Shown in pieces: positions 1-16,065 of a stretch of DNA of 41,448 bases. Under the pieces are notes generated by a model, which was given only the letters and a program-made list of their open reading frames with translations, was not told the origin of the DNA and searched no databases. How positions within the stretch are numbered: the stretch's first letter is position 1; every line of letters begins with the position of its first letter. A program made the position numbers and the translations under genes. This stretch comes from a virus: IMG/VR virus record IMGVR_UViG_3300032307_000519, positions 1-41,448 of that record. One strand, written 5' to 3'.

Positions 1-885
1 AGTAGTATTGTTATTAGGATTAGTTGGGTTATTTGGATTGGTAGTTGTGTTTGGATTAGTAGTTGTATTTGGATTAGTAGTTGTGTTTGGATTAGTAGGA
101 TTATTTGGATTAGTAGTTGTGTTTGGATTAGTAGTTGTGTTTGGATTAGTAGGATTATTTGGATTAGTAGGATTATTTGGATTGTCAGTAGTATTTGTTT
201 GATTAGTAGTAGTATTTGGATTAGTAGGATTTGTTGAATTATTAGTATCGGTAGTAGTATTTGAATTATTTGTATTGCTTTGATTAGTAGTATTTGGATT
301 AGTAGGATTATTTGGATTGGTAGTAGTATTTGAATTATTTGGATTGGTTTGATTAGTAGTATTTGGATTGGTAGTCGTATTTGTATTAGTTTGATTAGTA
401 GTATTTGGATTGGTAGTTGTATTTTCTGTTTGAGTATTTATAACATCATTATTTTTTTTGTTATTAGATGAATTTGTTTTTTCCTTAACCTCAATCACAC
501 CTATAACACTATTACCACCAATACTGTTAATATTATCAAATGAGGATATTACACTTGTTAGAACCGCAATATTATTCTGAGTAATAATAGCATTCATTGT
601 AGTGTTCTGAATCAATGCGACACCACTACATGGCCCATAAGGATTTTGAGAATTAATTTGATTAACCCACTGTTCTAAAGACCCTGACGTTAATTCAATA
701 GGTGTGAAACTTCTAATTGAACCATTATAAATTAATACAACATTTCCGTTTGGGTTATCTATAAAAATTTCTTGTTGTTTAAGAGTACAGGGGTCTGTAA
801 ATGAATACGAAAACCCCTGTCCCATTATTGTATTTATAGAGAATAAAAAAACAATTAAAAATATAATTCTTACAAAAATATTCAT
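1..885 (-). CDS. Asn/Thr/Pro-repeat secreted protein (3' end outside window)
   Basis: Open on the minus strand from an ATG at 885 to the window edge, 295 codons seen, so the protein is partial. It starts with a hydrophobic signal peptide (about residues 1-22, ending near MGQG). A globular part of about 115 residues follows, with two Cys (CTLKQQ and GPCSGVA), then a Lys/Asn linker. From about residue 150 the chain is only low-complexity units such as NPNTT, NTTTNPN and NPNNP. Such a tail is an extended spacer like those of surface proteins. It lies just downstream of the CsgG-like gene and probably shares its transcript. No family is recognised; exported surface protein or repeat-stalk adhesin is an inference. 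Confidence 0.75.
   Translation of the reverse strand, partial: MNIFVRIIFLIVFLFSINTIMGQGFSYSFTDPCTLKQQEIFIDNPNGNVVLIYNGSIRSFTPIELTSGSLEQWVNQINSQNPYGPCSGVALIQNTTMNAIITQNNIAVLTSVISSFDNINSIGGNSVIGVIEVKEKTNSSNNKKNNDVINTQTENTTTNPNTTNQTNTNTTTNPNTTNQTNPNNSNTTTNPNNPTNPNTTNQSNTNNSNTTTDTNNSTNPTNPNTTTNQTNTTDNPNNPTNPNNPTNPNTTTNPNTTTNPNNPTNPNTTTNPNTTTNPNTTTNPNNPTNPNNNTT
9..435 (-). repeat. Degenerate short tandem repeat coding for NPNTT/NPNNP units
   Basis: The plus strand here is made almost entirely of variants of ggattagtagttgt and ggattagtaggatta blocks, with unit lengths that are multiples of 3, so the minus-strand reading frame stays open. Units are imperfect (agtagt, gttgtg, gattgg changes), which fits repeated slippage and drift inside a coding sequence. 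The array runs up to the left edge and may continue. Confidence 0.85.
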
Positions 886-908: not shown

Positions 909-1625
909 TTACTGTCTAAAAATACCTTTTTTAATTAATTTAGTAACAACTCTTGAAGAAGCAGTTTCAAGTGCTTTTTTTGTTGATGTTCCTATTGTTG
1001 ATTGATTAAATTTAATTTCATCAACATTGTCTAAAATTGAAGATGTTTTGACAGTCGTTGCTTCACCTAAACCACTACCAGTAATAATCTCACCAGTTTG
1101 AGCATCAACAAATCTAACCTGTAAACCTAATCTAGTTGTCTGAGTAGCGGTTGCGCCATCAGCTAATTTAACTACCTCATCTTCTGAAACTGAAAAGTCA
1201 TAAACCTCAATATAAACAAAATATTTAGCAAGTATTACATTACCTTTAACCTCAATTTTATTTTGTGATATACCTTTATCAGAAGCCTTATCTTGAGCAA
1301 TCATTCTTTGTTTGATTTCTTCCTTATCTTCAGTAAAAATAAATCTTTCAGTTTCTTCCAAATATGATAAAACTATATTAGCAACCCCTAATCCAACTCG
1401 TTTATCTTTAAGCTCAGGATACATTTCATATACGGTTTCGTTAATACCAATTTGTAATACCTGAATTGGTATTACGATAGTATCAGTATAGTCCGATACA
1501 ACTGAAATGGATTGCTTTTTTTCAAAATCGGCTTTATATTCTTCAGTCTTAACTACCCCAATCTGACTGGTGGCATTACAAGACAAAATAAATAAAGGAA
1601 GTATTAATATTAATAAACTTTTCAT
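909..1625 (-). CDS. CsgG-family outer-membrane lipoprotein
   Basis: 238 residues. The N-terminus is a lipoprotein signal with lipobox LFILSC, so the mature protein would begin at Cys16 and be lipidated. The body follows the CsgG plan: a central RVGLGVANIVLSYLEE helix and strand, a YVYIEVYDFS-like strand pair, a VRFVDAQTGEII strand with GxGEA after it, and a C-terminal helix STKKALETA before a closing LIKKG. CsgG forms the oligomeric outer-membrane pore for curli subunits. Here it may form a pore or an envelope assembly factor. Start chosen at the ATG at 1625, whose A is shared with the TAA stop of the upstream gene (TAATG coupling). An alternative TTG start lies 6 bases upstream. Family call is moderately firm; function on a phage is unknown. 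Confidence 0.72.
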   Translation of the reverse strand: MKSLLILILPLFILSCNATSQIGVVKTEEYKADFEKKQSISVVSDYTDTIVIPIQVLQIGINETVYEMYPELKDKRVGLGVANIVLSYLEETERFIFTEDKEEIKQRMIAQDKASDKGISQNKIEVKGNVILAKYFVYIEVYDFSVSEDEVVKLADGATATQTTRLGLQVRFVDAQTGEIITGSGLGEATTVKTSSILDNVDEIKFNQSTIGTSTKKALETASSRVVTKLIKKGIFRQ

Positions 1626-1960
1626 TACCAACTTTCTTCTTGAACCTTAGCGGGTTTATCAGGTTGTGGTTGTGTTTGTGGTTGAACAACAGTAGTTTCT
1701 TTGATGATAGTATTTGTACCACCTTGTTGTTTTTGTTGGTTAGTGTTATTATTTTCAAGATTTAAATTAATAACAGGTTGTTGTGCCGGTGCTACTTGTT
1801 CAGTTTTAGGGCTTTCAGCTTCATCTGAATGTCCCCCAAATAATAATGTTGATACCCACACACCTCCACCAGCAATTACTGTTGTTAATGTGGCAATTAT
1901 TGTTTTCTTTAAACCTGACCAAGTACCGTCATTAGTTTCATTTGTTGTTTCGTCTGACAT
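1625..1960 (-). CDS. Single-pass membrane protein with Gln/Pro-rich tail
   Basis: 111 residues. A short acidic, Thr-rich N-terminus is followed by one transmembrane segment (about residues 19-41, KKTIIATLTTVIAGGG onward). A long polar tail rich in Gln, Pro, Asn and Thr follows. No family is recognised. Its stop codon overlaps the start of the CsgG-like gene, so the two are probably translated together. The topology resembles small phage membrane proteins that present a flexible arm to the periplasm, but that is a guess. Confidence 0.65.
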   Translation of the reverse strand: MSDETTNETNDGTWSGLKKTIIATLTTVIAGGGVWVSTLLFGGHSDEAESPKTEQVAPAQQPVINLNLENNNTNQQKQQGGTNTIIKETTVVQPQTQPQPDKPAKVQEESW

Positions 1961-1982: not shown

Positions 1983-3887
1983 TTATTGTAAAATTATTTT
2001 TTTTGAAATTTGTTTTTCACTTCTCTTTAAAACCGCAATGTATGTTCCTTTTGGTAAATACCCTAAACTTGTTGTATATTGATACTCACCTTCAGGCATT
2101 TCACCATTAACCACAACATTAAATTCTTTACCATTAATATCATATACAGATAATCTAATGTAACCATATTCCATGACATTAAATTTAACTGTTACATAAT
2201 CATCAGTCGGTACTGGAAAAACATTAATATTTTCCAATTCAGTTAAGTCCGCACTTTCATTAATTTTATATACTTGTACGATACCGTTTGTTGGTGTTAT
2301 TTCTAAATCCACACATTGATTATTTCCAGCGTACTTGTTAGTAGTCCATAATGGGCTAACTTCCCATAGATTTTGAGGTTGTTTAGCAATAAATTGTAAA
2401 GTAACAACTTCATCATTATCTCTTAAAGGATTTGTATGGTTATTCACATCAAATCCACCCCAATCAATCTGATTATTATTTGTGTTAAGGTAAGTCATCC
2501 AACTTGATGTGGATGACTTAGCCTCAATACCTTTGAACTCTAATAAAGTATCATTAAAATTTAAACCAAATTGAAGTGAACCTATGTTAATACCGTTAGT
2601 ATAAACTTTAACAGGTATGTTAACAAGATTACCTGATTGAACAGATATTCTTGGAACATTTACCTCAATTGAACTTGTAGGGAAATCATATTCAACTCTG
2701 TTATCAATAACATTATATATTTGGTGTTCAATACCTGGTTGTGGGGTAATTAAAACCTCAATAGGTGTTATACGAGCCATGTGATATCCTGTTCCATTAG
2801 CATCACCAGGAACTAATACATAATATGTAACTGAGTCAGGTTGTGTCGCTACAATATCAAAAGTGAAATTAGTTACACCAGGGATAGTTGATGTATAGTT
2901 AGTATTTGATTCGTTAATAGTGTTAAATTCAGAAACTGTAAAGAATTTAACGTCCTTAACACTGTTCGGCCATTCTGTAAATCTTCCAGAAATTCTACCA
3001 AACACACCCCAAGCATCTGATATTGTTAAGTTATTATCACCATTAACGTCAGATGAATAATAATCAAAACCTGCAGGTATTTGAGTACCAACAATATAAT
3101 CTTGCACTTTTTGAGCATCTGCCGTCGAAATAACATTACCAACTGCCATAGTATCACCTTGTACATTTAATCTAACAAAATAACCTGTAGTATCGATTGC
3201 CAAATCATTAAAAACAAAGTGTCCATTTACATCTGTTAAATCTGATGTAACAGGAACCCATTGACCACTTGGTTTAAGTTTCTTCTCTAATCCAACTGTT
3301 AAGTTTTTAGCTGGTGTTCCAGTTACGTTTCTAAATGTACCATGATATGAAAATGTTTGTGGTAAAATAACACCACCAAAGTTTTGTAAAGTTAACAAGT
3401 TATCAGTACCATCTTGTTTAGAAGCAATTGCCGGATATACCACAGGACTAAAAGTCATATTACCGATTGATGTTAATGAGGCAAAACCTGAAACATGATT
3501 CAACTTAACATTAACTATCGGACCATCAGGTATTTCAAACGAAGATAAAGTACCTGTATAAGTTAAAGTAATTGTTACATAACCCTGAGAAGGATTATCT
3601 AAAAACTTTAAATTTTGTGAAAAAGTCGTATTCAAAGACGATACAATTTCAACACCTGAAAAGGCGTTATTATCATAATAAACTCTGAACTGAAAAGCGG
3701 TAATCTTTGTTGTAGTTGTATTTTGAAAACACAACCCAACGTTGGTATACCCCTGTTGTACAGTACCAGCTAAATATGATTCATCAAGTGTTATAAAAAC
3801 ACCATCGGTAGTTGGTGTCGGACAAGTTTGTGAAAAACTTATAAATGACGCCAAAACTAAAGCAAAAGAAATAATAATTTTTCTCAT
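1983..3887 (-). CDS. Secreted multidomain protein with cohesin-like and dockerin-like modules and T9SS type A sorting domain
   Basis: 634 residues. Signal peptide at 1-19 (cut near FSQ). Residues about 30-165 look like a beta-sandwich of cohesin type. About 185-255 resembles a carboxypeptidase-regulatory-like sandwich. About 255-305 holds a dockerin-like stretch with the calcium loop DVNGDNNLTISD near 277-289. About 405-525 is a second cohesin-like sandwich. Residues about 555-634 form a type A T9SS C-terminal domain (NVFPVPTDDYV, then YDINGKE, then LPKGTYIAVL and a lysine-rich end). T9SS cargo is exported through the host outer membrane and anchored or released. A phage product with this tail would need the host T9SS. 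Domain limits are by eye. Confidence 0.8.
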   Translation of the reverse strand: MRKIIISFALVLASFISFSQTCPTPTTDGVFITLDESYLAGTVQQGYTNVGLCFQNTTTTKITAFQFRVYYDNNAFSGVEIVSSLNTTFSQNLKFLDNPSQGYVTITLTYTGTLSSFEIPDGPIVNVKLNHVSGFASLTSIGNMTFSPVVYPAIASKQDGTDNLLTLQNFGGVILPQTFSYHGTFRNVTGTPAKNLTVGLEKKLKPSGQWVPVTSDLTDVNGHFVFNDLAIDTTGYFVRLNVQGDTMAVGNVISTADAQKVQDYIVGTQIPAGFDYYSSDVNGDNNLTISDAWGVFGRISGRFTEWPNSVKDVKFFTVSEFNTINESNTNYTSTIPGVTNFTFDIVATQPDSVTYYVLVPGDANGTGYHMARITPIEVLITPQPGIEHQIYNVIDNRVEYDFPTSSIEVNVPRISVQSGNLVNIPVKVYTNGINIGSLQFGLNFNDTLLEFKGIEAKSSTSSWMTYLNTNNNQIDWGGFDVNNHTNPLRDNDEVVTLQFIAKQPQNLWEVSPLWTTNKYAGNNQCVDLEITPTNGIVQVYKINESADLTELENINVFPVPTDDYVTVKFNVMEYGYIRLSVYDINGKEFNVVVNGEMPEGEYQYTTSLGYLPKGTYIAVLKRSEKQISKKIILQ

Positions 3888-3980: not shown

Positions 3981-4454
3981 ATGAGATTAGTCATTATATT
4001 CCTTATATTAATATGTTCAACACAAATTAACTCACAGATTAAAATCGACGATGTTGGTGATGATTGGAAATTAAAAGTAGAAAAATCACTATCATTAATA
4101 AAAATGTATGATGTTGAAAAATATGATTTAATTAATAACGTATGCGAACATATAACTTATTGGAATGGCCCGTTTTCAACAACCGAAGACTCAGTAACAA
4201 TTATGATTACCCAAAAAGATATGATGTCCTCAATTAACAATATAGCATCAATACTAGTTCATGAGTCCCAACATTTATATTTTTTAAAAATGGGTATTAA
4301 ATTAAATCCAAATATTGAGGAGGTACTTTGTTATAGTTACGAATTAGATTTTTTATTTAAAATACCAAGCGTTGAGGAATGGTTAATTCGAAACGCCAAT
4401 AATAAAATAATTTATTATCAAAATTTAAATAAAAATAAAACCCCTCAAAAGTAA
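3981..4454 (+). CDS. Secreted HExxH metallopeptidase-like protein
   Basis: 157 residues, one of the few plus-strand genes. Signal peptide at about 1-18 (ends near INSQ). The helix SILVHESQHLYFL contains HESQH at 94-98, the zinc-binding HExxH pattern. A downstream acidic pair, IEEVLCYSYE, could give the third ligand or a structural contact. The arrangement suggests a gluzincin-like secreted or periplasmic peptidase, but the small size and lack of other motifs leave this open. It is divergent from the T9SS gene and convergent with dnaK, with which it shares a hairpin at its stop codon. Confidence 0.6.
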   Translation: MRLVIIFLILICSTQINSQIKIDDVGDDWKLKVEKSLSLIKMYDVEKYDLINNVCEHITYWNGPFSTTEDSVTIMITQKDMMSSINNIASILVHESQHLYFLKMGIKLNPNIEEVLCYSYELDFLFKIPSVEEWLIRNANNKIIYYQNLNKNKTPQK

Positions 4455-4481: not shown

Positions 4482-6353
4482 CTACTTACCTACTTCTTCA
4501 AAATCTACATCAGACACTTCAGAATCGTTATTCATCGTTTCATTCATTTCAGAAGATTGACTATAAAGATTTGCGGTAATACCTTGGAACACATTATTAA
4601 TGTTCTCAATACCTTCCTTAATCTTCTCAATGTCTCTTGATGAATGAGCTGATTTCAATTCTTCAAGAGCTGTGGTTACCTCTGACTTTTGTTCTTCAGT
4701 GATTTTATCTTCAATATCTTTTAAAGATTTCTCCACTTGGAAGATTGTTGTGTCAGCCTGATTGATAACTTCAGCATCTTCTTTTGCTTTCTTATCTGAT
4801 TCAGCGTTCATCTCCGCCTCTTGTTTCATCTTTTCAATCTCTTCTTTCGAAAGTCCTGATGATGATTCAATACGGATATTTTGTTGTTTGTTAGTTCCTT
4901 TGTCAAGAGCAGATACATTAATGATACCGTTAGCATCAATATCAAATGTTACCTCAATTTGTGGAACACCTCTCATTGCTGGTGGAATACCATCCAAGTG
5001 GAAACGCCCAATGGTTCGGTTGTCTTTCGCCATCGCTCTCTCACCTTGTAATACATGGATTTCAACTGTTGGTTGGTTATCAACTGCGGTTGAGAATACC
5101 TGTGACTTCTTGGTTGGGATTGTTGTGTTTGCTTCAATCAACTTTGTGAACACTCCACCCATTGTTTCAATACCAAGTGATAGTGGTGTTACATCTAATA
5201 ACAATACATCTTTAACATCACCCGCCAATACTCCTGCCTGAATAGCCGCTCCAAGAGCAACAACCTCATCAGGATTAACACCCTTTGACGGTTCCTTACC
5301 GAAGAACTTCTTAACCGCTTCCTGAATTGCCGGAATACGTGTTGTTCCTCCAACCAAGATGATTTCGTCAATATCACTTGTCTTAATTCCTGCGTTCTTT
5401 AATGCCGACTTACAAGGAGCAATTGTTCTTTCAACCAAACTATCAACAAGTTGTTCAAACTTTGCCTTAGTTAAAGTTCTTACCAAATGTTTCGGTATAC
5501 CATCAACAGGCATAATGTATGGTAAGTTAATCTCCGTAGATGGTGAAGAAGATAATTCAATCTTCGCCTTCTCAGCTCCTTCACGAAGACGTTGAAGAGC
5601 CATAGCGTCTTTTGTTAAGTCAATTCCGTTTTCATCTTTGAACTCAGTTACCAACCAGTCAATGATTGCTTGGTCAAAGTCATCACCACCAAGGTGTGTA
5701 TCACCATCAGTAGACAATACTTCAAATACACCATCACCAAGTTCCAACACAGATACGTCATGTGTTCCACCACCACAGTCAAACACAACAATCTTCATAT
5801 CTTTAGATTGTTTGTCCAATCCGTAAGCAAGTGCCGCAGCAGTTGGTTCATTAACAATTCTCATTACTTTCAAACCTGCAATCTCACCCGCTTCTTTCGT
5901 AGCCTGACGTTGAGCATCGTTGAAGTATGCCGGTACGGTGATAACCGCTTCAGTAACTTCACTTCCCAAATAGTCCTCAGCAGTTTGTTTCATCTTTTGA
6001 AGAACCATTGCCGAAATTTCTTGTGGAGAATACTTTCTATCCTCAATCTCAACACGAGGAGTTCCACCATCACCCTTAACTACTTTATAAGGAACACGTT
6101 TAACCTCATCTTTACTTTCATCAAAACTTGTTCCCATGAAACGTTTGATAGATGATATAGTCTTATCAGGATTAGTAACCGCCTGACGTTTAGCCGGGTC
6201 ACCAACCTTTCTTTCACCACCATTTAAGAAACCCACAATTGAAGGGGTGGTTCTTTTTCCTTCACTGTTTGTAATTACAACTGGTTCGTTACCTTCCATT
6301 ACGGCAACGCAAGAATTTGTAGTCCCTAAATCCACGCCTATTATTTTTCCCAT
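4482..6353 (-). CDS. dnaK: DnaK (Hsp70) chaperone
   Basis: 623 residues, full length. The ATPase domain starts [17 protein letters not shown] and includes [14 protein letters not shown] and the phosphate-2 loop. The substrate domain has [14 protein letters not shown] and the usual GERAMAKDN and [13 protein letters not shown] segments. The alpha lid runs to the end, closing with VDFEEVGK, like the conserved bacterial EEVD-type tail. Hsp70 binds unfolded peptides in an ATP cycle with DnaJ and GrpE; neither partner is in the window, so host co-chaperones are probably used. The loop reads DCGGGTHD at 192-199 instead of the usual DLGGGTFD; the Thr is kept. It ends at a strong terminator and follows the HNH gene by 12 bases. 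Confidence 0.98.
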
Positions 6354-7165: not shown

Positions 7166-8350
7166 TCACGCAAATAAAGCCCTTGTGTCAAAATAGTTTT
7201 GGTATATGTCAGCAATTTCAGTAGCACTTAATACTCTGTTATACACCAATAAAACTTGTAGACCACCATAATAAGTCTTACCTGCAGTATTTCCTGGGGT
7301 ACTTTGACCTATTTTCCAATTAGGTGATGATGGCGACCAAGAAGCAGCGGTAAAGGTTTCTGTATTAGTTTCAGATAATGTACCATCAAGATAAAAACTA
7401 GTTGTAGTAGTTCCTCCACCATTAGGTTCAAAAACATATGTAAATTGATGCCAGCTTATAGTATCAATATTTGCAGTTCCAATTCTTGTTTTAGACACTC
7501 CGGCAGAATCTGTAATAGCATAATAAAATCTAATATTACCCTTTTCATTGTAAAAACCAACACTTTGATTTATAGGAGTTCCTATAGTTGGAGCACAAGA
7601 AAAAACATACTGCGATGCTCCATCAGCATTGTATGTCGGTTTCGCCCAAAATATTATAGTAAAACCACTCCCAAGATTTCTATTATAAGTCGTATTAGTA
7701 AAAACCTCTAAAGGTTCAATAACCCCATTATCAATAAAATCAAAAAAGAAACTAGTCTCATCAAAATGACTAATAATTCTTGAACTTCCTGAAAAACCAC
7801 TCATAGCTGATTGGGTAAAATCATACCAAGTTGGATTCATAAATGGATATGAGGCGGCATGCCCCGCATCCAAAGCAAATGTTAACCCACTCGTTGGTAT
7901 GTTTGGATAATTCATATTAACACAAACATTTGAACCTCCTCCACCTCTACCTGATGTTCCGTTTCCAGCAGAAGCATCATGTTTAAACCAATTTAAAGCC
8001 TCTGGAAAATCCGCAACACTAAAACCCGCCTGTGAATTAACAAAATTAATAACGTCTTGTGTGTCAGTATATTGAACACATCTATAATAATCATTAAGAT
8101 TATTAGTTTTACCTGTTGTTGTACCCGTATAATATATTGTATAGGTAGCGTCATCTATTGTACGATTATCAATCCCTTGATACCACCCTGATTTTGATGA
8201 TGTTCCATAATTCCGATTAACATCTATACCAAAATACCAAGTATTAATATTTAAAAAATTGGAATCATAATGAAGATTATTAGAATTACCATTTGAGGTA
8301 TAATCTATTTTGATTTTGTTTGGATTAATACTGTTGTATATCTCTGCCAT
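7166..8350 (-). CDS. LamG/concanavalin-like fibre or adhesin protein
   Basis: 394 residues without a signal peptide, which fits a virion protein better than a secreted one. The N-terminal 130 residues are unrecognised. A Gly-rich linker (GTSGRGGGGS) leads to a laminin-G-like jelly roll: LTFALDAGHAASYP, then FTIIFWAKPTYN, then WHQFTYVFEP, a FYLDGTLSET strand, GQSTPGNTAGKTYYGGL and the closing helix LSATEIADIYQNYFDTR. This module is common in phage tail-fibre and host-binding proteins, where it binds glycans. The tail assignment is inference. Confidence 0.75.
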   Translation of the reverse strand: MAEIYNSINPNKIKIDYTSNGNSNNLHYDSNFLNINTWYFGIDVNRNYGTSSKSGWYQGIDNRTIDDATYTIYYTGTTTGKTNNLNDYYRCVQYTDTQDVINFVNSQAGFSVADFPEALNWFKHDASAGNGTSGRGGGGSNVCVNMNYPNIPTSGLTFALDAGHAASYPFMNPTWYDFTQSAMSGFSGSSRIISHFDETSFFFDFIDNGVIEPLEVFTNTTYNRNLGSGFTIIFWAKPTYNADGASQYVFSCAPTIGTPINQSVGFYNEKGNIRFYYAITDSAGVSKTRIGTANIDTISWHQFTYVFEPNGGGTTTTSFYLDGTLSETNTETFTAASWSPSSPNWKIGQSTPGNTAGKTYYGGLQVLLVYNRVLSATEIADIYQNYFDTRALFA

Positions 8351-8361
8351 ACTAATAAGTA

Positions 8362-8742
8362 TTATACTACAGATTTAATTTTGTCATATAAAGTGGTAAC
8401 TTCAGGATGACTATTTTCAATCCATTTGATTAACTGTTCATGCCACCTACCCTCACCAAATAAACCATCAAGTTTTTCTTTAATAAAATCCTCAATAAAT
8501 ATTTTAGGAACAGTATCATCATAATGATGTCTTATACGTATCTTAAAAAGATTTTCGTAACTTTCTGCATCATAAAATAAAACCGAATCAATTTCATTTA
8601 TATCATCCACATCATTCAAATCACTATGATAATAACCATCAACATACTCAACATTAATATGTTCAGGCATCATATCCTCAATAACATTATAAATCATGTT
8701 CTGAAGTTTCTGATATTGATGTGGTGTTAATTTATATTTCAT
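8362..8742 (-). CDS. Hypothetical protein with KLTPHQYQKLQ-type N-terminal tag
   Basis: 126 residues, acidic, no family recognised. The first residues (MKYKLTPHQYQKLQNM) match in spacing the MKVVITEEQYKRLL-type starts of several other proteins in this window. The rest has an Asp-rich stretch (about 38-55) and a basic helical C-terminus. It overlaps the upstream metallopeptidase-like gene by 4 bases (ATGA), indicating translational coupling. Confidence 0.65.
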   Translation of the reverse strand: MKYKLTPHQYQKLQNMIYNVIEDMMPEHINVEYVDGYYHSDLNDVDDINEIDSVLFYDAESYENLFKIRIRHHYDDTVPKIFIEDFIKEKLDGLFGEGRWHEQLIKWIENSHPEVTTLYDKIKSVV

Positions 8743-9833
8743 CTTAAAGAATAAAGTTTTGAAACTCTCTTTAACATATTATTAGCCGTGAATTTAAACT
8801 TTCTTTCAAAGTATTCAAAAAACTTCTTTGGGTCTTTTCTAACCGCCAATGGTATTGCGTCAATCTTAGACGGACTAACACCATTCGCAACCGTATGTTC
8901 CACAATCTTTTCCAAAATATCATTCCATTCAAAAATCCATTCATAAGCCTTCTCAACCGCCACCTCTTTAAATATCATATCTTGGAGGCTATTAATCTTT
9001 TTTAATGATTCAAATAAATCATCCGCTGAGAAATCTCTTAATTCTTTAATCTCTTTAAAAACCGATGTACCCCTTAAAGCTTCAATGAAATCTTCATAAC
9101 TATCAATCTTAGTCCTTCTTAAAATATGTGACACCTGTGGAATACGAGCGTCTTGCTCAAAGTTCAAACTCAAATAAATCAAATGTAAAAAATTATTCCA
9201 TTCAGGTAAGAACTGACTTTTAATAGCATTAACCAATACATTTGTTGCCTGACCCTTACCAAATCCTACCTGACCCTTATTAGTATATCTCTTATACAAC
9301 TGATAAGCATGTAATAACTCATGTGAAATAACTGACTCCAACGTTGGAGATAACAATTCCAAATTATCCCACGTTTCCTCATCCATTCTAATATGGAATT
9401 CAAACATACTAATATCAAACACATCACCACTCTTAAAGTCAGCAGCATCAAAACTATGTGACGCATCAACATTAAGATTACTTTTATAAACCGCCTGTAA
9501 AACACCCTCTTCAAAGATTTCAAACTTAATATCAATAGGATTTTTATACATCGGAAACTTACCCCACTCCTGTTCATCAAAGCTTTGAGTTTCCTTAACC
9601 ATGTTCCAAGATTTATCACCGTCAATTTCAATCTCACCCCTACGCATAACACTTTCACCAATGGTTTTAACATCAATCTCAACCTCGTCTAAAGGTTCGT
9701 TGGATGATTTGAAAGAATAGAGCAGTTTTTTAACGACCTCAGCGAATACCGAAGTCATCATTTCAATATCAGATGGAACACCTACCGCCTCACGAAGTAG
9801 GTTTCTTATTTTCAGTTTGTTTGATACGGACAT
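8739..9833 (-). CDS. HELLH zinc-metallopeptidase-like protein
   Basis: 364 residues. The motif VISHELLHAYQLYKR, near residue 168, is a HExxH helix. The surrounding beta-rich N-terminal half and helical C-terminal half match the gene at 28187-29230 in size and motif position, so the two are probably paralogues. Start taken at the ATG giving MSVSNKLKIRNLLREA; a TTG three codons upstream is also in frame. The last third is helical and basic. A structural or maturation protease role would fit a phage, but only the zinc motif supports peptidase activity. Confidence 0.62.
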   Translation of the reverse strand: MSVSNKLKIRNLLREAVGVPSDIEMMTSVFAEVVKKLLYSFKSSNEPLDEVEIDVKTIGESVMRRGEIEIDGDKSWNMVKETQSFDEQEWGKFPMYKNPIDIKFEIFEEGVLQAVYKSNLNVDASHSFDAADFKSGDVFDISMFEFHIRMDEETWDNLELLSPTLESVISHELLHAYQLYKRYTNKGQVGFGKGQATNVLVNAIKSQFLPEWNNFLHLIYLSLNFEQDARIPQVSHILRRTKIDSYEDFIEALRGTSVFKEIKELRDFSADDLFESLKKINSLQDMIFKEVAVEKAYEWIFEWNDILEKIVEHTVANGVSPSKIDAIPLAVRKDPKKFFEYFERKFKFTANNMLKRVSKLYSLR

Positions 9834-9936
9834 TTTTCTCAAATAATTCTTTATTCCTTTCGTATAAAGATAAGTCAGTAGAAAACATCAGTTTCTTAAT
9901 CTGTTCCTCTGTAAAACCTTCAAATGGATTTTTCAT
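9790..9936 (-). CDS. Small hypothetical protein (48 aa)
   Basis: Starts MKNPFEGFTEEQIKKLMF and ends with a polar NKKPTS tail; highly charged, helical, no family recognised. A longer reading frame would run back into the tRNA-Leu gene, so the ATG at 9936 is preferred. Its 3' end overlaps the start of the HELLH gene by 44 bases in another frame. The FTEEQ segment echoes the ITEEQ tag of other proteins here. Confidence 0.5.
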   Translation of the reverse strand: MKNPFEGFTEEQIKKLMFSTDLSLYERNKELFEKNVRIKQTENKKPTS

Positions 9937-9969
9937 AATACGAATATAATGATAAATATTAATAAAACC

Positions 9970-10000
9970 AAAAAACCCCCTAAATAAATTAGAGGGTTTG
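9970..10000 (-). terminator. Intrinsic terminator after tRNA-Leu
   Basis: Minus-strand hairpin of AAACCCTCTAA with TTTAGGGGGTTT around a short AT loop, followed by a T-run. It lies just 3' of tRNA-Leu(TAA), so it ends the two-tRNA transcript. Confidence 0.75.
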
Positions 10001-10005
10001 TTTAG

Positions 10006-10089
10006 TAGTCGGAGCGGGAATCGAACCCGCACGGACGTTAGTCCACAGCATTTTAAGTGCTGCGTGTCTACCTGTTCCACCATCCAACC
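10006..10089 (-). tRNA. tRNA-Leu (anticodon TAA)
   Basis: Acceptor GGTTGGA/TCCGACT with discriminator A, anticodon loop CTTAAAA, long variable arm closed by GGAC/GTCC, T-arm GCGGG-TTCGATT-CCCGC. The class II variable arm confirms Leu. No encoded CCA. Confidence 0.93.
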
Positions 10090-10095
10090 AACAAG

Positions 10096-10169
10096 TGCGC
10101 CCTACAGGACTCGAACCTATGACCTTCTCGTTATGAGCGAGCTTCTCTAACCAACTGAGATAAGGGCGC
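10096..10169 (-). tRNA. tRNA-Met (anticodon CAT)
   Basis: Acceptor GCGCCCT/AGGGCGC, discriminator A, loop CTCATAA. A standard class I body with elongator-like features. A CAT anticodon could also be tRNA-Ile modified to lysidine; sequence alone does not decide. Confidence 0.88.
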
Positions 10170-10170
10170 T

Positions 10171-10509
10171 TTACTTCCAAAACAACTGAACCATCAGTAT
10201 CAAAAAACTCAAACCTAAACACACCCCCGTTTTAACCGTTATAGGTTCACCAAACAATGTAATAGATAAGATTGTAAACATAATTGTTCCCAACACAAAT
10301 CCTATCAACCTTGATGGCCACAACTGTCCGTTGAAGTGTTCAACCATCAAACCAACTGATGTCATAAACAAAATTGAAATCGGAATACCCATTAGTACGA
10401 CCAACCATTGGTTGTTTTTCATCCAATCATACTTCCATCTTCCTTGTAGTTGTAAGAAGGTTAGTACTTGAGCGAGTAACCCCACTAACATTCCTAAAAT
10501 CAATTTCAT
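10171..10509 (-). CDS. Four-helix membrane protein, DMT/SMR-like
   Basis: 112 residues with four hydrophobic helices. The last begins after the motif LFGEPITVKTG, which resembles the FxEPIT turn between the last helices of drug/metabolite transporter and small multidrug-resistance proteins. Its partner and substrate are unknown. Start is the ATG at 10509; it lies only 3 bases after a promoter -7 element, so the mRNA would be essentially leaderless. The stop codon abuts the 5' end of tRNA-Met. Confidence 0.65.
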   Translation of the reverse strand: MKLILGMLVGLLAQVLTFLQLQGRWKYDWMKNNQWLVVLMGIPISILFMTSVGLMVEHFNGQLWPSRLIGFVLGTIMFTILSITLFGEPITVKTGVCLGLSFLILMVQLFWK

Positions 10510-10512
10510 TAA

Positions 10513-10543
10513 CAAATATAAGATAAAACTTTTAAATAATCAA
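10513..10543 (-). promoter_or_regulatory. Bacteroidota-type promoter, leaderless
   Basis: On the minus strand TTG, 20 bases, TATATTTG, then TTA and the ATG of the membrane-protein gene. This matches the -33 TTG / -7 TAnnTTTG pattern of the primary sigma factor of Bacteroidota. Confidence 0.75.
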
Positions 10544-10544
10544 A

Positions 10545-11099
10545 TTATCTTGGTTGTCTAAATGAAAGATTATACTCATCTAAATCAACGGAACCTCTAA
10601 GTTCATCTTGTAACTCATTTTTAAAATCTCTCCAATCGTCAAATTGTTCCTTTGTTAAATTAGTAAATACGATTCTTAGTTCAGGATTGTTGTCTCTATC
10701 CCAATTAAATTCTGTATTGGGATAGTTTGTTCTCTTAATTGCGTCTTCAATCTTATCATTGATATCTGATAAGTAATCATAATTAATGAACTCATCATAA
10801 ACTTTATAATATTCTTTTGGTAATCCTGTTGAATTAAAAAACTCATTAAATACACCTTCAAACTTTCTTGACCAATCATATGTAAACCTTGGGATTCCAG
10901 TTATTTTTTTTGTTGAGGGTCTAAAAAACTTGGTGTATTCTTCATCATATTGTCCACTGTTTTTATCAGTCTTGGCAACATCAGTATAAACCTTCAATGC
11001 TCGTTTATTATCCAAATCAACAAACTCATATTTAACATCTTTTGGGATGTTCATTTTAGTTTTTAAAAAACTACTCAATATTTGTTCTTTCTTTGTCAT
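10545..11099 (-). CDS. Hypothetical protein (184 aa)
   Basis: Start taken at MTKKEQILSSFLK (ATG 11099); upstream in-frame codons lie within a terminator-like region. The protein is soluble, mixed charge, with Trp/Tyr-rich helices (FTYDWSRKFEGV, then YPNTEFNWDRDN). No family recognised. A TATATTTG element lies upstream but I see no TTG at the right spacing. Confidence 0.6.
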   Translation of the reverse strand: MTKKEQILSSFLKTKMNIPKDVKYEFVDLDNKRALKVYTDVAKTDKNSGQYDEEYTKFFRPSTKKITGIPRFTYDWSRKFEGVFNEFFNSTGLPKEYYKVYDEFINYDYLSDINDKIEDAIKRTNYPNTEFNWDRDNNPELRIVFTNLTKEQFDDWRDFKNELQDELRGSVDLDEYNLSFRQPR

Positions 11100-11124
11100 A
11101 TAATTTATAAATACAAATATAAAC

Positions 11125-11153
11125 AAAAAACCCCATCATTTACGACAGGGTTT
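11125..11153 (-). terminator. Intrinsic terminator of the coiled-coil gene
   Basis: Minus strand AAACCC...GGGTTT hairpin with loop TGTCGTAAATGATG followed by TTTTTTG; 32 bases beyond the stop at 11185. Confidence 0.7.
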
Positions 11154-11184
11154 AATAGTTTTTATACAAAAATGTTTTACCAAT

Positions 11185-11805
11185 TTAAGGTATTAACGAT
11201 GGTGCTAACGGAACAAGAGCTGGGGCAAAAGTGAAAAATGAAAATACAGCAATTATGTCAAGTAGGAGTATTAATAAACCTCTTTTAGCCTTTCTTTTTT
11301 CCTCAGGTGTTAACACTCTTCCAGTTTGTTTTAATTCTTCACCTTTTTGTTTAAGTGCTTCAAATTTTTTATTTAATTCCTCAGCCTTTTCAATCTGACG
11401 TTTAACCTTAACATCTTCAATTTTATTACCAAGTTTAGTTTTAGTTTGTTCAATTTTTTCATTAATTGAATTGATGATGTTTTCAGCAGTGTCTACCGCA
11501 TTTTCGGCAAACGTACTAATATCTTCTTTTTCATTATCAATAAATTCTTTAACTTTATCAATAAATTGCGCAATATTTTCTTTTTTATCGTCAACAATAG
11601 TTCTAAGGTTTTGACCTCTAGTTGCCATAATTTCTTTACGCTTAATGTCTATTTGATTTTTTAAATCTTGATTCTGTGATTTAAGTTCATCGCTTGACAT
11701 ATCAGTTGGCTCTGTAACTTGTTCTGAAATAACCATACCTTTTTTATAACCAAAAAGATATTTCATTTGTGATATTTCTTCAGATAACAATTCTTTATTT
11801 TTCAT
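11185..11805 (-). CDS. Coiled-coil membrane-anchored protein with LLSEE N-terminal tag
   Basis: 206 residues. The N-terminus MKNKELLSEEISQMKYLFGY shares the (I/L)-x-E tag pattern. Residues about 45-165 are a long amphipathic helix rich in Glu, Lys and Ile (typical coiled coil, apolipoprotein-like heptads). Residues about 172-200 are hydrophobic (LLILLLDIIAVFSFFTF), ending in Pro-rich SLIP. A tail-anchored coiled coil suggests a scaffold or membrane-associated structural role; this is inference. Confidence 0.62.
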   Translation of the reverse strand: MKNKELLSEEISQMKYLFGYKKGMVISEQVTEPTDMSSDELKSQNQDLKNQIDIKRKEIMATRGQNLRTIVDDKKENIAQFIDKVKEFIDNEKEDISTFAENAVDTAENIINSINEKIEQTKTKLGNKIEDVKVKRQIEKAEELNKKFEALKQKGEELKQTGRVLTPEEKRKAKRGLLILLLDIIAVFSFFTFAPALVPLAPSLIP

Positions 11806-11840
11806 AGTTTTTAATTTTATTAATAAATATATCGAAAAAT

Positions 11841-11869
11841 AAAAAAACCCCTCACATCGGAGGGGTTAA
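11841..11869 (-). terminator. Intrinsic terminator of the zinc-ribbon gene
   Basis: Perfect stem AACCCCTC/GAGGGGTT with loop CGATGT, followed by TTTTTTTATTTTT on the minus strand. The left copy of a 19-bp inverted repeat abuts it. Confidence 0.85.
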
Positions 11870-11884
11870 TGAAACCTTGTTGAT
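11866..11884. repeat. Left copy of 19-bp inverted repeat flanking the zinc-ribbon gene
   Basis: TTAATGAAACCTTGTTGAT on the plus strand. The exact reverse complement is at 13007-13025, upstream of the same gene. In the minus transcript the two would pair, linking the 5' leader to the 3' end. Confidence 0.85.
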
Positions 11885-11890
11885 ATTTTT

Positions 11891-12916
11891 TTAGTCAATG
11901 ACAATAGCTCTCAACGAGTCGGATGTCAATGAATCTGATTTTATGTAAATTAGTTTATTTTCATTTCTCTTTAGGAAATTATCTAAAGTGTCATTATATG
12001 TTAACATAAAATAATGTTTACCATCAATACTTACTTTAGTGTCCATAGTATAATGAATTTCAGTTTTGGTTCTAACCATTTGTTTTCCACATTGAGGACA
12101 GAATTTCCAAGATGATTTTTTTATCTTGGTTCCACAATTTGAACAATGTGTAATATTCACTTCGGTTGCGGTCAATGGTTTTTCCGATAAAGGTAATATT
12201 TTCCATGTTGAATAGTTTGATGGGAATGAATTAAAATTCATATCAACTGATTCAAACTCTTGTTTTGAGTCTGAACCTTTCTCAATTCTACCAGTCTCTT
12301 TGAACCTGTCAGTTTGTAATGATTTTTTTAAGTTTTGTGAACTGTTCGTATTATACGAATCGTTGGTATAAAAAGCATTTGAGTCACCTGCGAAAGTATT
12401 ACTGTTAGATGTTAAATTAACGTTTGTGTTATAATACTTAGCGTTTTGACCCCAATTTATACTATACGTACCTGTGGTTATAGTGTTTATATCACCATGC
12501 CATTTATCATTAGTCCAAGTACTATTAGCACCACCCGCCAACGTCATAATTGGGTTAGTCAAATAAACATTCTCATCATAGAATTCAACGACAACCTCAC
12601 CATTGTTTTGGATGGCTTCTTGGACTTCCTTTGATGATGAGTTAACCTCATACACCTCAAATTTGAACTTCCTTGCTTCGTTCAAATATCTTTCCAAGAA
12701 TACTCTTTGGCCAGGTTTGATAATAATACCACCACCTGATAGGTAATTCCCATTGATTTTTATTTTTGCTAAAACTGAAATTGATTTTGGGTTGAAGATT
12801 TCTACCTCAAATTCTTCCCCGTTGTTAAGATAAACGTTTGAGCCGTTTTGTTTTAATCTTTGTTTCCCTGTCGTAATATAAGCGGACGGAAACTTCTTGA
12901 GTTTTGTGTAATACAT
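11891..12916 (-). CDS. Zinc-ribbon protein of unknown function
   Basis: 341 residues, not secreted. The first two thirds are beta-rich with Asn/Ser/Thr-rich loops and a run of NTNVNLTSNSNTFAGDSN-type repeats. Near residue 256 there is a two-knuckle zinc ribbon, HCSNCGTKIKKSSWKFCPQCGK. A beta domain ends the protein. The ribbon resembles zinc_ribbon_2 tails of otherwise diverse membrane and regulatory proteins. The beta-rich body suggests a structural protein. Its 5' leader folds into a three-way junction (12953-13002) and the gene is flanked by a 19-bp inverted repeat. Function unknown. Confidence 0.6.
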   Translation of the reverse strand: MYYTKLKKFPSAYITTGKQRLKQNGSNVYLNNGEEFEVEIFNPKSISVLAKIKINGNYLSGGGIIIKPGQRVFLERYLNEARKFKFEVYEVNSSSKEVQEAIQNNGEVVVEFYDENVYLTNPIMTLAGGANSTWTNDKWHGDINTITTGTYSINWGQNAKYYNTNVNLTSNSNTFAGDSNAFYTNDSYNTNSSQNLKKSLQTDRFKETGRIEKGSDSKQEFESVDMNFNSFPSNYSTWKILPLSEKPLTATEVNITHCSNCGTKIKKSSWKFCPQCGKQMVRTKTEIHYTMDTKVSIDGKHYFMLTYNDTLDNFLKRNENKLIYIKSDSLTSDSLRAIVID

Positions 12917-12952
12917 TTTTTTTCCTTATTTTATTTTTTATGTTTATTGAAC

Positions 12953-13002
12953 CCCACTTTGTTGGTATTTCTCCAACTCAACTGTCTCACAGGACAGGTG
13001 GG
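12953..13002 (-). promoter_or_regulatory. Three-way-junction 5' leader structure
   Basis: Three helices with intact pairing: CCCAC (12953-12957) with GTGGG (12998-13002), GTTGG (12961-12965) with CCAAC (12973-12977), and CTGTC (12982-12986) with GACAG (12993-12997). They form a compact junction just upstream of the zinc-ribbon start codon. Riboswitch, ribozyme or stability element are all possible; I did not find a hammerhead core. Confidence 0.5.
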
Positions 13003-13006
13003 CCTC

Positions 13007-13025
13007 ATCAACAAGGTTTCATTAA
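13007..13025. repeat. Right copy of 19-bp inverted repeat
   Basis: Exact reverse complement of 11866-11884, sited immediately upstream of the three-way-junction leader. Confidence 0.85.
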
Positions 13026-13056
13026 TAACTATAAGGTAATTTGTTTTTTTGTAAAT

Positions 13057-13086
13057 AAAAAACCCCACCTTGTGAGTGGGGGTTTA
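13057..13086 (-). terminator. Intrinsic terminator of the Met-Glu-Tyr tRNA transcript
   Basis: Minus-strand stem AACCCCCAC...GTGGGGTT followed by TTTTATTTAC. Confidence 0.85.
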
Positions 13087-13286
13087 ATTTTAACAAACCA
13101 TCTACGTTCACCGTAGTTGTAGATTTGACTGAACATAATTTACTGTTCACCTGTTGTGTGGCCACACAGAGCAGGGTCCATCACAGCTTACCTTGGGGCA
13201 TTTAAACTTCGGTTGTGGTAGCTACTCCACGGTGAAGCCAAGGTTTCTTTCAACGGTGCTAATCCGTCTTCTGTAAGGTTTGTTTG
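13057..13286 (-). ncRNA. Candidate structured RNA between tRNA-Tyr and a terminator
   Basis: A 200-base gap without a gene, downstream of tRNA-Tyr on the minus strand and ended by the hairpin at 13057-13086. It contains intact hairpins: CTAC...GTAG (13102-13116), TGAACA...TGTTCA (13130-13149), and the 14-base palindrome TGTGTGGCCACACA (13155-13168). Nothing in it matches an RNA family I know. Confidence 0.45.
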
Positions 13287-13368
13287 TTGTGGTGGACGGA
13301 CTCGAACCGCCAAGTCCATAGGAACCTGTTTTACAGACAGGCGAGCCAACCAATTGCTCAACACCACA
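13287..13368 (-). tRNA. tRNA-Tyr (anticodon GTA)
   Basis: Acceptor TGTGGTG/CACCACA, discriminator A, stem CCTGT/ACAGG with loop CTGTAAA, long class II variable arm, T-arm GGCGG-TTCGAGT-CCGTC. Second in a transcript Glu-Tyr after Met. Confidence 0.93.
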
Positions 13369-13374
13369 ATGTAG

Positions 13375-13446
13375 TAGTCGGTAGGGGATTCGAACCCCTA
13401 TGACAAGAATGAAAATCTTGTATCCTAACCCTTAGATGAACCGACC
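13375..13446 (-). tRNA. tRNA-Glu (anticodon TTC)
   Basis: Acceptor GGTCGGT/ACCGACT, stem CAAGA/TCTTG with loop TTTTCAT, T-arm AGGGG-TTCGAAT-CCCCT, discriminator A. Confidence 0.94.
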
Positions 13447-13450
13447 ATAG

Positions 13451-13525
13451 TTGCGGGGACAGGAATCGAACCTGTGTCGTTTGGCTTATGAGACCAAGCT
13501 GGTACCATCTCCAGTCCACCCCGCC
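13451..13525 (-). tRNA. tRNA-Met (anticodon CAT), initiator-like
   Basis: Stem TTGGT/GCCAA with loop CTCATAA; T-arm ACAGG-TTCGATT-CCTGT. Position 1 (G) faces A72 and does not pair, a hallmark of initiator tRNAs, but the three G-C pairs of the initiator anticodon stem are absent. The D-arm seems to have a bulged A. Initiator status is therefore tentative. Confidence 0.85.
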
Positions 13526-13570
13526 ATTTAATATTTCAATTTAACATTCAGTCGTTCCTGAATTGTTTTA

Positions 13571-13601
13571 CAAATGTAAGTAATAAATACTCTTGTGTCA
13601 A
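13571..13601 (-). promoter_or_regulatory. Promoter of the Met-Glu-Tyr tRNA array
   Basis: Minus strand TTGACAC, then TACATTTG with exactly 20 bases between TTG and the -7 box, followed by TAAAAC. A near-identical 30-base second copy lies directly upstream (13602-13631) but its -7 box is damaged (TACATTCT). Confidence 0.8.
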
Positions 13602-13631
13602 GAATGTAAGTAATAAATACTCTCGTGTCAA
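13572..13631. repeat. Tandem duplication of a promoter-sized unit (2 x 30 bases)
   Basis: AATGTAAGTAATAAATACTC followed by TTGTGTCAAG, then the same unit again with TCGTGTCAAA. The copies differ at few positions; only the gene-proximal copy keeps the TAnnTTTG box. Confidence 0.85.
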
Positions 13632-13639
13632 AAAAAATC

Positions 13640-14122
13640 TTAGTTAACTTCCCAAGAATACAAAATAACTCGTTTTTTCATCTTAGAATCTTCTGTGTTT
13701 CCAACAACAACTCCATCAATGATTGAAAAAGCGTGTCCACGAACAACAACAAGATATCTACCTTTTGGGAATTTCTTAATGAACGTTCCTGTGGTCATGT
13801 TACGTTTAACAATCTGACCTTTAACTTTAACATCATATTTCATATGTCCGTGTTGGTCACCCAAGTTGGAGAATGACTTACCATTAATCAAAACTCCTTT
13901 ACTAACCATACCACGCATACCACCAATGAAGTTTCTTGTTCCCTCACGATTTCCACGAAACCATTTTTTCGCAACGAACTTGTGTGCTTCATCGTAATGC
14001 ATTTCAAACGAAGATGCAATAGCTCTAACAACACAATCATTACTTTCACTTTGAGCGATTTTAGAATCACTGTATCCAATAATTGCGTCTTTTGTAGGTA
14101 TGTACTTTATTTCGTTATTCAT
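13640..14122 (-). CDS. Papain-like cysteine peptidase-fold phage protein
   Basis: 160 residues. The motif ESNDCVVRAIASSF puts Cys30 at the start of a helix, as in papain-like and C39-like domains often seen in phages (NDCxVRA). A late strand-turn GRYLVVVRGHAFSIIDG (about 121-137) offers the catalytic-type His followed by a DG turn. The region between is helical, with basic residues. Whether it is an active peptidase cannot be decided. The start codon is 4 bases after a -7 box, so the mRNA is predicted to be leaderless. Confidence 0.65.
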   Translation of the reverse strand: MNNEIKYIPTKDAIIGYSDSKIAQSESNDCVVRAIASSFEMHYDEAHKFVAKKWFRGNREGTRNFIGGMRGMVSKGVLINGKSFSNLGDQHGHMKYDVKVKGQIVKRNMTTGTFIKKFPKGRYLVVVRGHAFSIIDGVVVGNTEDSKMKKRVILYSWEVN

Positions 14123-14126
14123 ACCA

Positions 14127-14157
14127 CAAAGATAAGGTGAAATACTTTACCCCACAA
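14127..14157 (-). promoter_or_regulatory. Leaderless promoter of the papain-like gene
   Basis: Minus strand TTG, 20 bases, TATCTTTG, TGGT, ATG. Same geometry as at 14780, 21503, 30799 and 40786. Confidence 0.82.
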
Positions 14158-14196
14158 ATTTTTTTGTAGTGCGTTTTCTCATTACGCAATACCTAA

Positions 14197-14418
14197 CTAT
14201 TTTATTTTAACAGTTGATGTAATCTCTCCAGATAAATTAACACGAACATCTAAAGCGTGTAACGAATCAATAACTATATATCTTTCGCCGTCTATTCTAT
14301 ACACAACACCATTAGGGTACTTTGTTTGTATCATCTCCGTGTCTTGGGATATGGTGGTTTTATCTGAACAACCAGTTAAAAACATACCGATACCTAATAT
14401 CACAATTATTCTTTTCAT
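14197..14418 (-). CDS. Small lipoprotein (73 aa)
   Basis: Signal peptide with lipobox GMFLTGC; the mature part of about 56 residues is polar, with IDGERYIVIDS and VNLSGEITSTV beta strands. No family recognised. It follows the tRNA-like element at 14434-14538 on the same strand by 15 bases, so the two are probably on one transcript. Confidence 0.65.
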   Translation of the reverse strand: MKRIIVILGIGMFLTGCSDKTTISQDTEMIQTKYPNGVVYRIDGERYIVIDSLHALDVRVNLSGEITSTVKIK

Positions 14419-14433
14419 ATCTTTTATTTTTTG

Positions 14434-14538
14434 TACTCAGAGAAGGACTTGAACCTTCACGTCATTTCTGACTCGGGTAGGTTACCCTAGCGTCTATCCA
14501 TCGGACTAATGCATTAGCCTCGCTTCCGCCACCTGAGC
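14434..14538 (-). tRNA. tRNA-like element, Leu-type body with expanded D-loop and odd anticodon loop
   Basis: Acceptor GCTCAGG/TCTGAGT with discriminator A, T-arm GAAGG-TTCAAGT-CCTTC, and a class II variable hairpin GTCA-GAAA-TGAC. The start GGTGGCGGAA and the later TAGACGC are the two sides of a Leu-type D-arm, but about 23 extra bases lie inside the loop, including the palindrome CTAATGCATTAG. The anticodon hairpin GGG-TAACCTA-CCC has A where U33 is required; read literally the anticodon would be ACC. Either a decayed tRNA-Leu or a tRNA mimic. Confidence 0.6.
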
Positions 14539-14544
14539 TAATTT

Positions 14545-14775
14545 TTATTTTACAAATCGGTATGCCGCTTCTTTGAATAGGTTGGTTTGAGATAAGAACA
14601 AATGAGTTGACATATCTGTACCTCCTAAGATTTCACATACTTGTCCGGCTAGTTTTCTAACCCATCCATCTGTTCGGATAATTCCCAATGGCTCATCTTC
14701 TTTCATTTGTAAGATGGCTTCTCTTAACTGTTCATCAGTTAAGTTTGTGTAGAGTTCAGTTATTGCGTTTTTCAT
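14545..14775 (-). CDS. Hypothetical protein (76 aa)
   Basis: Soluble and mostly helical: LTDEQLREAILQMKEDE, then GIIRTDGWVRKLAGQV. Such short LTDEQLR proteins are frequent in phages of Bacteroidota, but no function is known to me. Leaderless promoter geometry upstream. Its stop lies 7 bases before the tRNA-like element. Confidence 0.6.
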   Translation of the reverse strand: MKNAITELYTNLTDEQLREAILQMKEDEPLGIIRTDGWVRKLAGQVCEILGGTDMSTHLFLSQTNLFKEAAYRFVK

Positions 14776-14779
14776 ACGA

Positions 14780-14810
14780 CAAATCTACAACATTCTTTTC
14801 AGTTACACAA
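14780..14810 (-). promoter_or_regulatory. Leaderless promoter
   Basis: Minus strand TTG, 20 bases, TAGATTTG, TCGT, ATG of the 76-residue gene. Confidence 0.8.
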
Positions 14811-14820
14811 ACTTTTTTTA

Positions 14821-15543: not shown

Positions 15544-15549
15544 GTTATA

Positions 15550-15711
15550 TTATTTTATTCCTTTACAAATTTGTTTATCGTCCGATGTGTCCCATAGTTT
15601 GGGATTAACCATATGACAGGTATGTTTTCTACCTGTTCGTTGTACAAAGTTTCTTAACTTACTATTGTGATTATTTTCAACCTTCCAAGGACATTCCTTA
15701 CAACAAGACAT
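15550..15711 (-). CDS. Small Cys-rich protein, DUF6283-like
   Basis: 53 residues from the ATG at 15711. MSCCKECPWK and later KHTCHM plus a C-terminal Cys give five to six potential metal ligands. The CPW segment followed by NxH and a CHM motif resembles the DUF6283 phage proteins; this is from memory. A longer start at 15741 would overlap the upstream gene. Lies 7 bases before clpP. Confidence 0.55.
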   Translation of the reverse strand: MSCCKECPWKVENNHNSKLRNFVQRTGRKHTCHMVNPKLWDTSDDKQICKGIK

Positions 15712-15712
15712 A

Positions 15713-15922: not shown

Positions 15923-15936
15923 AATTTTAAAATTTG

Positions 15937-16010: not shown

Positions 16011-16019
16011 ATATAAGTT

Positions 16020-16065
16020 AAAGGTCGTCTTCTCTATCCGTGTGGTATTTCACGAGACGACCTTT
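16020..16065 (-). terminator. 10-bp hairpin between structured RNA and tRNA-Phe
   Basis: AAAGGTCGTC with GACGACCTTT around a 26-base loop. It lacks a U-run longer than three, so it may be an RNA processing or 3'-end-stabilising stem rather than a true terminator. Confidence 0.5.

Follow-up and report, generated by a model that had tools for sequence, protein, structure and literature searches.

The window analysed here corresponds to a virus record of 41,448 bases. Positions 909–1625 (minus strand, stop included) are filled by one intact open reading frame with an ATG start, which encodes an exported protein of 238 amino acids and is referred to as csgG1. Its start codon overlaps the stop of the preceding gene, mem, by one base (TAATG), and no other csgG1 copy was found in the record. 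Relatives with 55–87% identity were recovered by tblastn, with 74 loci in viral contigs, and a profile search based on a 28-row alignment detected at least 587 viral-contig loci, 80 of them among the matches listed; csgG1 is therefore no chance reading frame. The alignments of csgG1 and of its neighbour sec1 contain 28 rows each, hand-picked from the 74 loci and from 110 sec1 open reading frames, respectively. The preliminary description of this DNA had proposed a search for homologues in other phages of Bacteroidota, and the cultured relatives found were Flavobacterium phages immuto only: among 50,697 phage records searched, four immuto records matched csgG1 (74.4% identity), the counterpart being gp017, annotated as “hypothetical protein”. 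The host of Immutovirus is Flavobacterium sp. LMO8. The csgG1 family is nearly confined to phages. It was identified in 1 of 149 Flavobacteriaceae genomes and, around the Ignavibacteriales locus L081, in 1 of 119 genomes of its class and 2 of 395 of its phylum; every one of these counts includes the genome around which its sample was drawn.

For the analysis of the neighbourhood, the open reading frames of 128 loci were compared and 125 csgG1 loci, grouped into 46 clusters at 95%, were counted; L075 (the window itself) and L076 (the same phage as L047 and a duplicate of immuto) were left out of the synteny counts. Among loci with at least 3.5 kb upstream and at least 4.5 kb downstream of csgG1, the gene order coh, mem, csgG1, sec1, csgG2 on one strand was observed in 82 of 88 loci and, with one locus per cluster, in 30 of 34 clusters. 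The four clusters lacking the full order are represented by L063, L066 and L071, which belong to a divergent group, and by the bacterial locus L081. Counted per cluster, mem was present in 38/39, coh in 34/39, sec1 in 36/38 and csgG2 in 33/38. The divergent group, described from L072 and L066 over about 5.7 kb upstream to 3 kb downstream of csgG1, carries a lectin-cohesin protein in place of coh, together with two to three small lipoproteins (one weakly similar to a T9SS tag), further barrel-like proteins and several small membrane proteins. Beside the cassette of the window, positions 3981–4454 (plus strand) encode a 157-aa exported protein with an HExxH-like motif recognised by eye (HESQH); 21 of 46 clusters have relatives of this protein close to the cassette, in either orientation.

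The csgG1 protein was modelled with AlphaFold from the 28-row family alignment (pLDDT 68.8, pTM 0.61). When the model was compared with the PDB by Foldseek, the first 14 rows were all CsgG or curli-complex chains (best E-value 5.9e-8), and VIA-align superposed it on CsgG (4uv2) with a Z score of 12.2 over 147 residues at 2.8 Å. PelC, FlgT, LptE and TraT follow with Z scores of about 7.5 to 10.2, which places the fold within a broad class of adaptor proteins of the periplasm and outer membrane. A search of the viral structure library matched one protein named CsgG (4.1e-8), followed by an unnamed protein (1.7e-4). The assignment of a CsgG fold rests on the model, because plain sequence searches of the window protein against Pfam, PHROGs and PDB sequences returned no CsgG, with no PF03783 match at E ≤ 10. 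PF03783 was matched weakly by 5 of 28 relatives (best 8.5e-5), and L081 is the only relative shown above the cut-off (28.4 bits against 20.8). A comparison of the csgG1 family with 12 CsgG sequences by hhalign gave a probability of only 1%. The CsgG-like character suggested in the preliminary description thus holds at fold level, as modelled, and the sequence link is thin.

The membrane barrel of CsgG is built by two amphipathic hairpins. In the csgG1 model, a long first hairpin is kept (strands 135–153 and 157–174). The segment of the second hairpin was delimited by conserved motifs, a pattern that fits 30 of 31 phage-family sequences and 9 of 12 CsgG references. Its length was 25.2 residues in the 30 phage sequences, compared with 36.0 in the nine CsgG references and 36.2 in all twelve, which leaves the second hairpin of the family about 11 residues short. 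It also appears, from sequence, to have no lipid-facing side, the best face on the interface scale scoring −0.12 in the phage family and −0.39 in the nine references. The tip of hairpin 1 has 21.5 residues, 33% of them charged, in the phage family, against 26.0 residues and 22% in CsgG; over the whole of hairpin 1, core strand included, the best-face scores (−0.52 and −0.46) do not tell the families apart. With respect to lipidation, the window protein has a cysteine at residue 17 in a lipobox-like setting, and a cysteine near the mature start or cleavage site was observed in 25 of 44 scorable csgG1 clusters and in none of the remaining 19. It is plausible that the window copy is a lipoprotein; lipidation, as judged from these sequences, is not a trait of the family.

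The preliminary description had read csgG1 as a CsgG-type outer-membrane pore lipoprotein. This reading is favoured by the PDB ranking, in which the best matches are all CsgG, by the first hairpin kept in the model and by the PF03783 matches of the relatives, including that of L081. We nevertheless consider it very improbable, since the second hairpin is short and not amphipathic, the tip of hairpin 1 is more charged and the cysteine is not constant; the hhalign result points the same way. Of the structural test set beforehand, which asked for the CsgG fold or its pore loops, the fold was recovered and the pore loops were not supported by the sequences. We read csgG1 as a CsgG-fold protein that is probably not itself a CsgG-type pore.

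The gene mem (1625–1960, minus strand) encodes 111 amino acids with one hydrophobic stretch, which is preceded by KK and followed by an acidic, proline-rich C-terminal tail ending in Trp; the membrane protein of the preliminary description is thus real. Members of the family have a length of about 110 aa. The TAATG overlap with csgG1 and the terminal Trp were both found in 42 of 42 cluster representatives. With topology taken from the charges, mem would be a one-helix inner-membrane protein. The Trp is exactly the last residue in all 42, often after acidic residues, which would suit a binding motif at the free C-terminus.

On the other side of csgG1, sec1 occupies positions 1–885 (minus strand) as an open reading frame of 295 amino acids that runs beyond the window edge. 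The preliminary description regarded it as a secreted repeat protein; complete relatives, in which a signal peptide is followed by an N-terminal domain, a linker of low complexity and a C-terminal barrel part, identify it instead as the N-terminal portion of a barrel protein of the outer membrane that the edge truncates, with the signal peptide, N-terminal domain and linker inside the window and the barrel outside. The linker ranges from 61 to 505 residues (median 195, n = 44). In the AlphaFold model of the relative L065 (pLDDT 63.0, pTM 0.55), 12 C-terminal strands were observed, and the model aligned with EspP at a Z score of 17.8 over 219 residues; other barrels match too. The modelled barrel is closed and the last residue is mostly hydrophobic (L, F or I in 36/44, Q in 8/44), as expected of an outer-membrane β-barrel.

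Downstream of sec1 and beyond the window, the relatives encode csgG2, an exported protein of about 150 aa. A csgG2 profile free of csgG1 sequences matched csgG1 proteins, among 5,186 open reading frames, at 6.9e-9 and weaker, and hhalign aligned the two families with a probability of 97.5% and a score of 78.1, compared with at most 18.9 in 50 column shuffles. By these sequence comparisons, csgG2 is a paralog of csgG1. At L081, csgG1 and csgG2 lie side by side (csgG2 profile 1.6e-12), surrounded by chromosome-like genes and no phage genes. At positions 8001–15437 of this locus, the pair precedes genes for an 825-aa protein and a CHASE2-cyclase, and an exported protein of 428 aa is also encoded after the pair. 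In phage HTVC008M, too, the curli genes have a CHASE2 gene after them. The tests made detected no homology between the sec1 barrel and either the 428-aa protein of L081 or the C-terminal part of Flavobacterium CsgG.

The first gene of the cassette, coh (1983–3887, minus strand), encodes an exported protein of 634 amino acids with a Cohesin domain and a Por_Secre_tail, the C-terminal sorting domain of the type IX secretion system (T9SS) (Pfam 1.8e-8 and 3e-8). After exclusion of a 136-aa coh fragment of L054 from the scan and the alignment, the T9SS type A sorting domain (PF18962) was present in 37 of 37 coh proteins and cohesin in 34 of 37; dockerin was detected at E 0.001 in just four of the 37. 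The sole Por_Secre_tail match (E ≤ 1e-3) of 18 of 19 long relative records is this coh, which lies 0.3–1.6 kb upstream of csgG1 and shares its strand. In immuto-like phages, the parts of coh are split over three proteins, the first of which carries a C-type lectin domain. The outer proteins differ by Pfam, with Lectin_C in L047, L029 and L072, GEVED in L049 and none recognised in L031. The window is an exception in that, besides coh, it encodes a second Por_Secre_tail protein and a CHU_C protein outside the cassette: an exported protein with a MopE-type metal-binding motif (32087–33136, minus strand) and an exported, T9SS-tagged CHU_C + PKD_6 protein (16954–18519, minus strand).

These results bear on the envelope secretion unit suggested in the preliminary description. 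A conserved multi-gene envelope unit is supported by the gene order; a secretion function was not supported, coh bearing the tag of the host's T9SS and so not needing to leave through this unit. An alternative is that the cassette acts as a secretion unit independent of the T9SS, in which the sec1 barrel would be the pore, gated by the CsgG-fold pair, and coh or a different product of the cassette would be the substrate. In favour of it, sec1, the sole channel-shaped outer-membrane protein of the cassette, has a barrel fold with a helix-bearing N-terminal part, its best matches are autotransporter translocators (FapF among others), and the genes for exported proteins and the barrel keep a constant order. 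Matches of a barrel fold say little on function, however, coh is already tagged for another route, and no other constant exported substrate was observed; we therefore regard this alternative as improbable.

The gene set, its order, the domains and the modelled folds describe a five-gene set that is conserved among large viruses infecting Flavobacterium-type bacteria. Its products are expected to extend to all layers of the host envelope, and it may let the virus rebuild or break open the host surface. Our main reading, to which we assign a probability of about 0.4, is that the cassette encodes a trans-envelope complex by which a protein exported through the host T9SS is displayed on the cell surface. 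In this proposal, mem would anchor the complex in the inner membrane and reach into the periplasm, where csgG1 and csgG2 would form a ring or adaptor without crossing the outer membrane themselves. The sec1 protein would contribute an outer-membrane barrel of 12 strands, carried by its long flexible linker, and coh, exported via the host type IX secretion system, would sit on the surface of the infected cell, its cohesin modules carrying variable outer domains such as C-type lectin or GEVED. The likely use would be a phage-made surface on the infected cell, for adhesion, aggregation or exclusion of other phages. We infer contact among the five proteins from gene order alone; ring formation, topology, surface role and timing are likewise put forward as parts of the model.

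A T9SS protein within the unit, with outer domains that vary and inner parts that are constant, is as expected of a surface structure, and the occurrence of the csgG1-csgG2 pair in a bacterial chromosome-like locus without phage genes is also in favour of it. Against the surface reading, the host by itself might suffice to export and anchor coh, in which case the other four genes need not serve it. The second Por_Secre_tail protein and the CHU_C protein lie elsewhere in the window, the divergent clusters L063, L066 and L071 yielded no coh, dockerins are rare in coh, and the csgG1 and L065 models are of middling confidence. Further points against it are the endolysin genes and small membrane proteins near the cassette.

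In the window, a GH19-type endolysin with a peptidoglycan-binding domain (33507–34349, minus strand; PG_binding_1 and Glyco_hydro_19, PHROG endolysin 4.5e-69) lies about 32 kb from csgG1 and would be part of the system only if the cassette served lysis. Each of the 19 long relative records encodes such an endolysin, 18 of them in a single copy and one in two copies. In 11 of the 19, it is at most 6 kb from csgG1, and the two genes share a strand in every case; in the other 8, immuto among them, the distance is about 30 kb or more. By hand-drawn lineages it is near in 7 of 12 (binomial 1.6e-4 when the largest chance value is used); among 13 protein clusters at 95%, six are near, one is mixed and six are far (binomial 0.0023 for 6/13). 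In 22 of 34 clusters, the cassette contains or adjoins small proteins with two transmembrane segments (2-TM), and holin families were observed in 7 of 46 clusters within the flanks examined. L031 shows a run of csgG2, a 2-TM protein, the endolysin and a Phage_holin_4_1 holin, the last three corresponding to immuto gp192–gp190, located about 30 kb from the cassette in that phage. The cassette might accordingly be a lysis module that, after the endolysin has cut peptidoglycan, bridges and disrupts the outer membrane and does the work of spanins, with mem in the inner membrane, the CsgG-fold pair in the periplasm and sec1 in the outer membrane. The overlap of the mem stop with the csgG1 start is consistent with such a module. 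We consider lysis unlikely on balance and keep it as the chief, strong rival because of the endolysin neighbourhood and the small 2-TM proteins by the cassette. Against it stand the distant endolysin in the window and in the 8 far records, 2-TM proteins of the cassette that gave no holin match, a constant T9SS surface protein that has no place in a lysis step, and the immuto cassette, which adjoins replication genes. If lysis were its role, the cassette would reveal the means by which phages of Bacteroidota rupture the outer membrane.

Should the surface reading be correct, a wider statement could be made for Bacteroidota phages: a nearly phage-exclusive machine of two non-pore CsgG-fold paralogs would link the inner membrane, the periplasm and an outer-membrane barrel and, via the T9SS, plant a cohesin scaffold with exchangeable outer domains on the living host. 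It would represent a separately evolved T9SS counterpart of the pelagiphage curli module, making the infected cell sticky or closed to rivals. In this full form we regard the statement as speculative and doubtful. Phage genes that build the host surface are known from pelagiphages (curli), and a second, unrelated toolkit in Bacteroidota phages would suggest a general strategy of aquatic phages. Since cultured carriers exist in Immutovirus, the question of why phages carry envelope-assembly genes is directly testable. Among the other genes of the window, we observed 24 tRNA genes (10005–25059), a large set for a 41-kb phage fragment, as well as a full-length phage-borne Hsp70/DnaK (4482–6353, minus strand) and a phage-borne ClpP-type protease (14821–15543, minus strand).

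As described in the preliminary account, the cassette lies outside any curli operon. CsgF (PF10614) and curlin (PF07012) were each found in 0 of 19 long relative records, which may be fragments, and the control phage HTVC008M was positive in both searches. A query with E. coli CsgG retrieved the pelagiphage and Melnitz CsgG and not immuto. In the passages covered, CsgF and CsgG are reported in pelagimyophages with “sibling capture” proposed (PMC7029224), CsgGF of Melnitz is proposed to regulate lysis (PMC9004378), and pelagiphage modules with curlin repeats, FecR and adenylate cyclase are described (PMC9599517). T9SS-tagged cargo was reported in Cryophage and termed “a unique occurrence” (PMC7468147), and the passages of PMC10013915 covered use T9SS for host genes only. 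In a study of Baltic Sea Flavobacterium phages (PMC7077304), a term search met none of the words immuto, cohesin, secretion, lipoprotein and outer membrane. Curli operons of phages and T9SS cargo of phages are thus each known on their own; judged by titles and the openings of abstracts, we did not find the present combination described in the literature covered, which mostly excludes subscription journals.

Among known systems, the E. coli curli channel CsgG (PDB 4uv2, 4uv3, 6l7a) shares with csgG1 its export and the fold over most of the protein (Z about 12), and csgG1 differs in its missing Pfam CsgG match, short second hairpin, inconstant lipid cysteine and lack of CsgF and curlin partners. 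PelC, FlgT, LptE and TraT are periplasmic or outer-membrane adaptors of similar fold; no sequence relation to csgG1 was found for them and their partners differ. Flavobacterium CsgG, present in 9 of 41 Flavobacterium genomes, has a CsgG domain and the Bacteroidota host range in common with the family, but it is about 450–490 aa long with a C-terminal extension unrelated to sec1 by the tests made. The T9SS cargo of Cryophage (PMC7468147) resembles coh as variable phage cargo tagged for the host T9SS; it consists of endoglucanase, GH39 and PA14 proteins, and a CsgG-fold cassette is not mentioned in the passages of that paper covered. The curli (T8SS) modules of pelagiphages and Melnitz, as in HTVC008M, likewise have a CsgG-fold gene as part of a multi-gene set for the envelope that lies near replication genes, in phages of aquatic Gram-negative hosts, and the curli genes of HTVC008M and Melnitz adjoin a gene for a single-stranded DNA-binding protein. 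These modules contain a true CsgG with CsgF, curlin repeats, FecR and CHASE2, whereas the cassette combines a T9SS cohesin protein, a barrel and two CsgG-fold paralogs.
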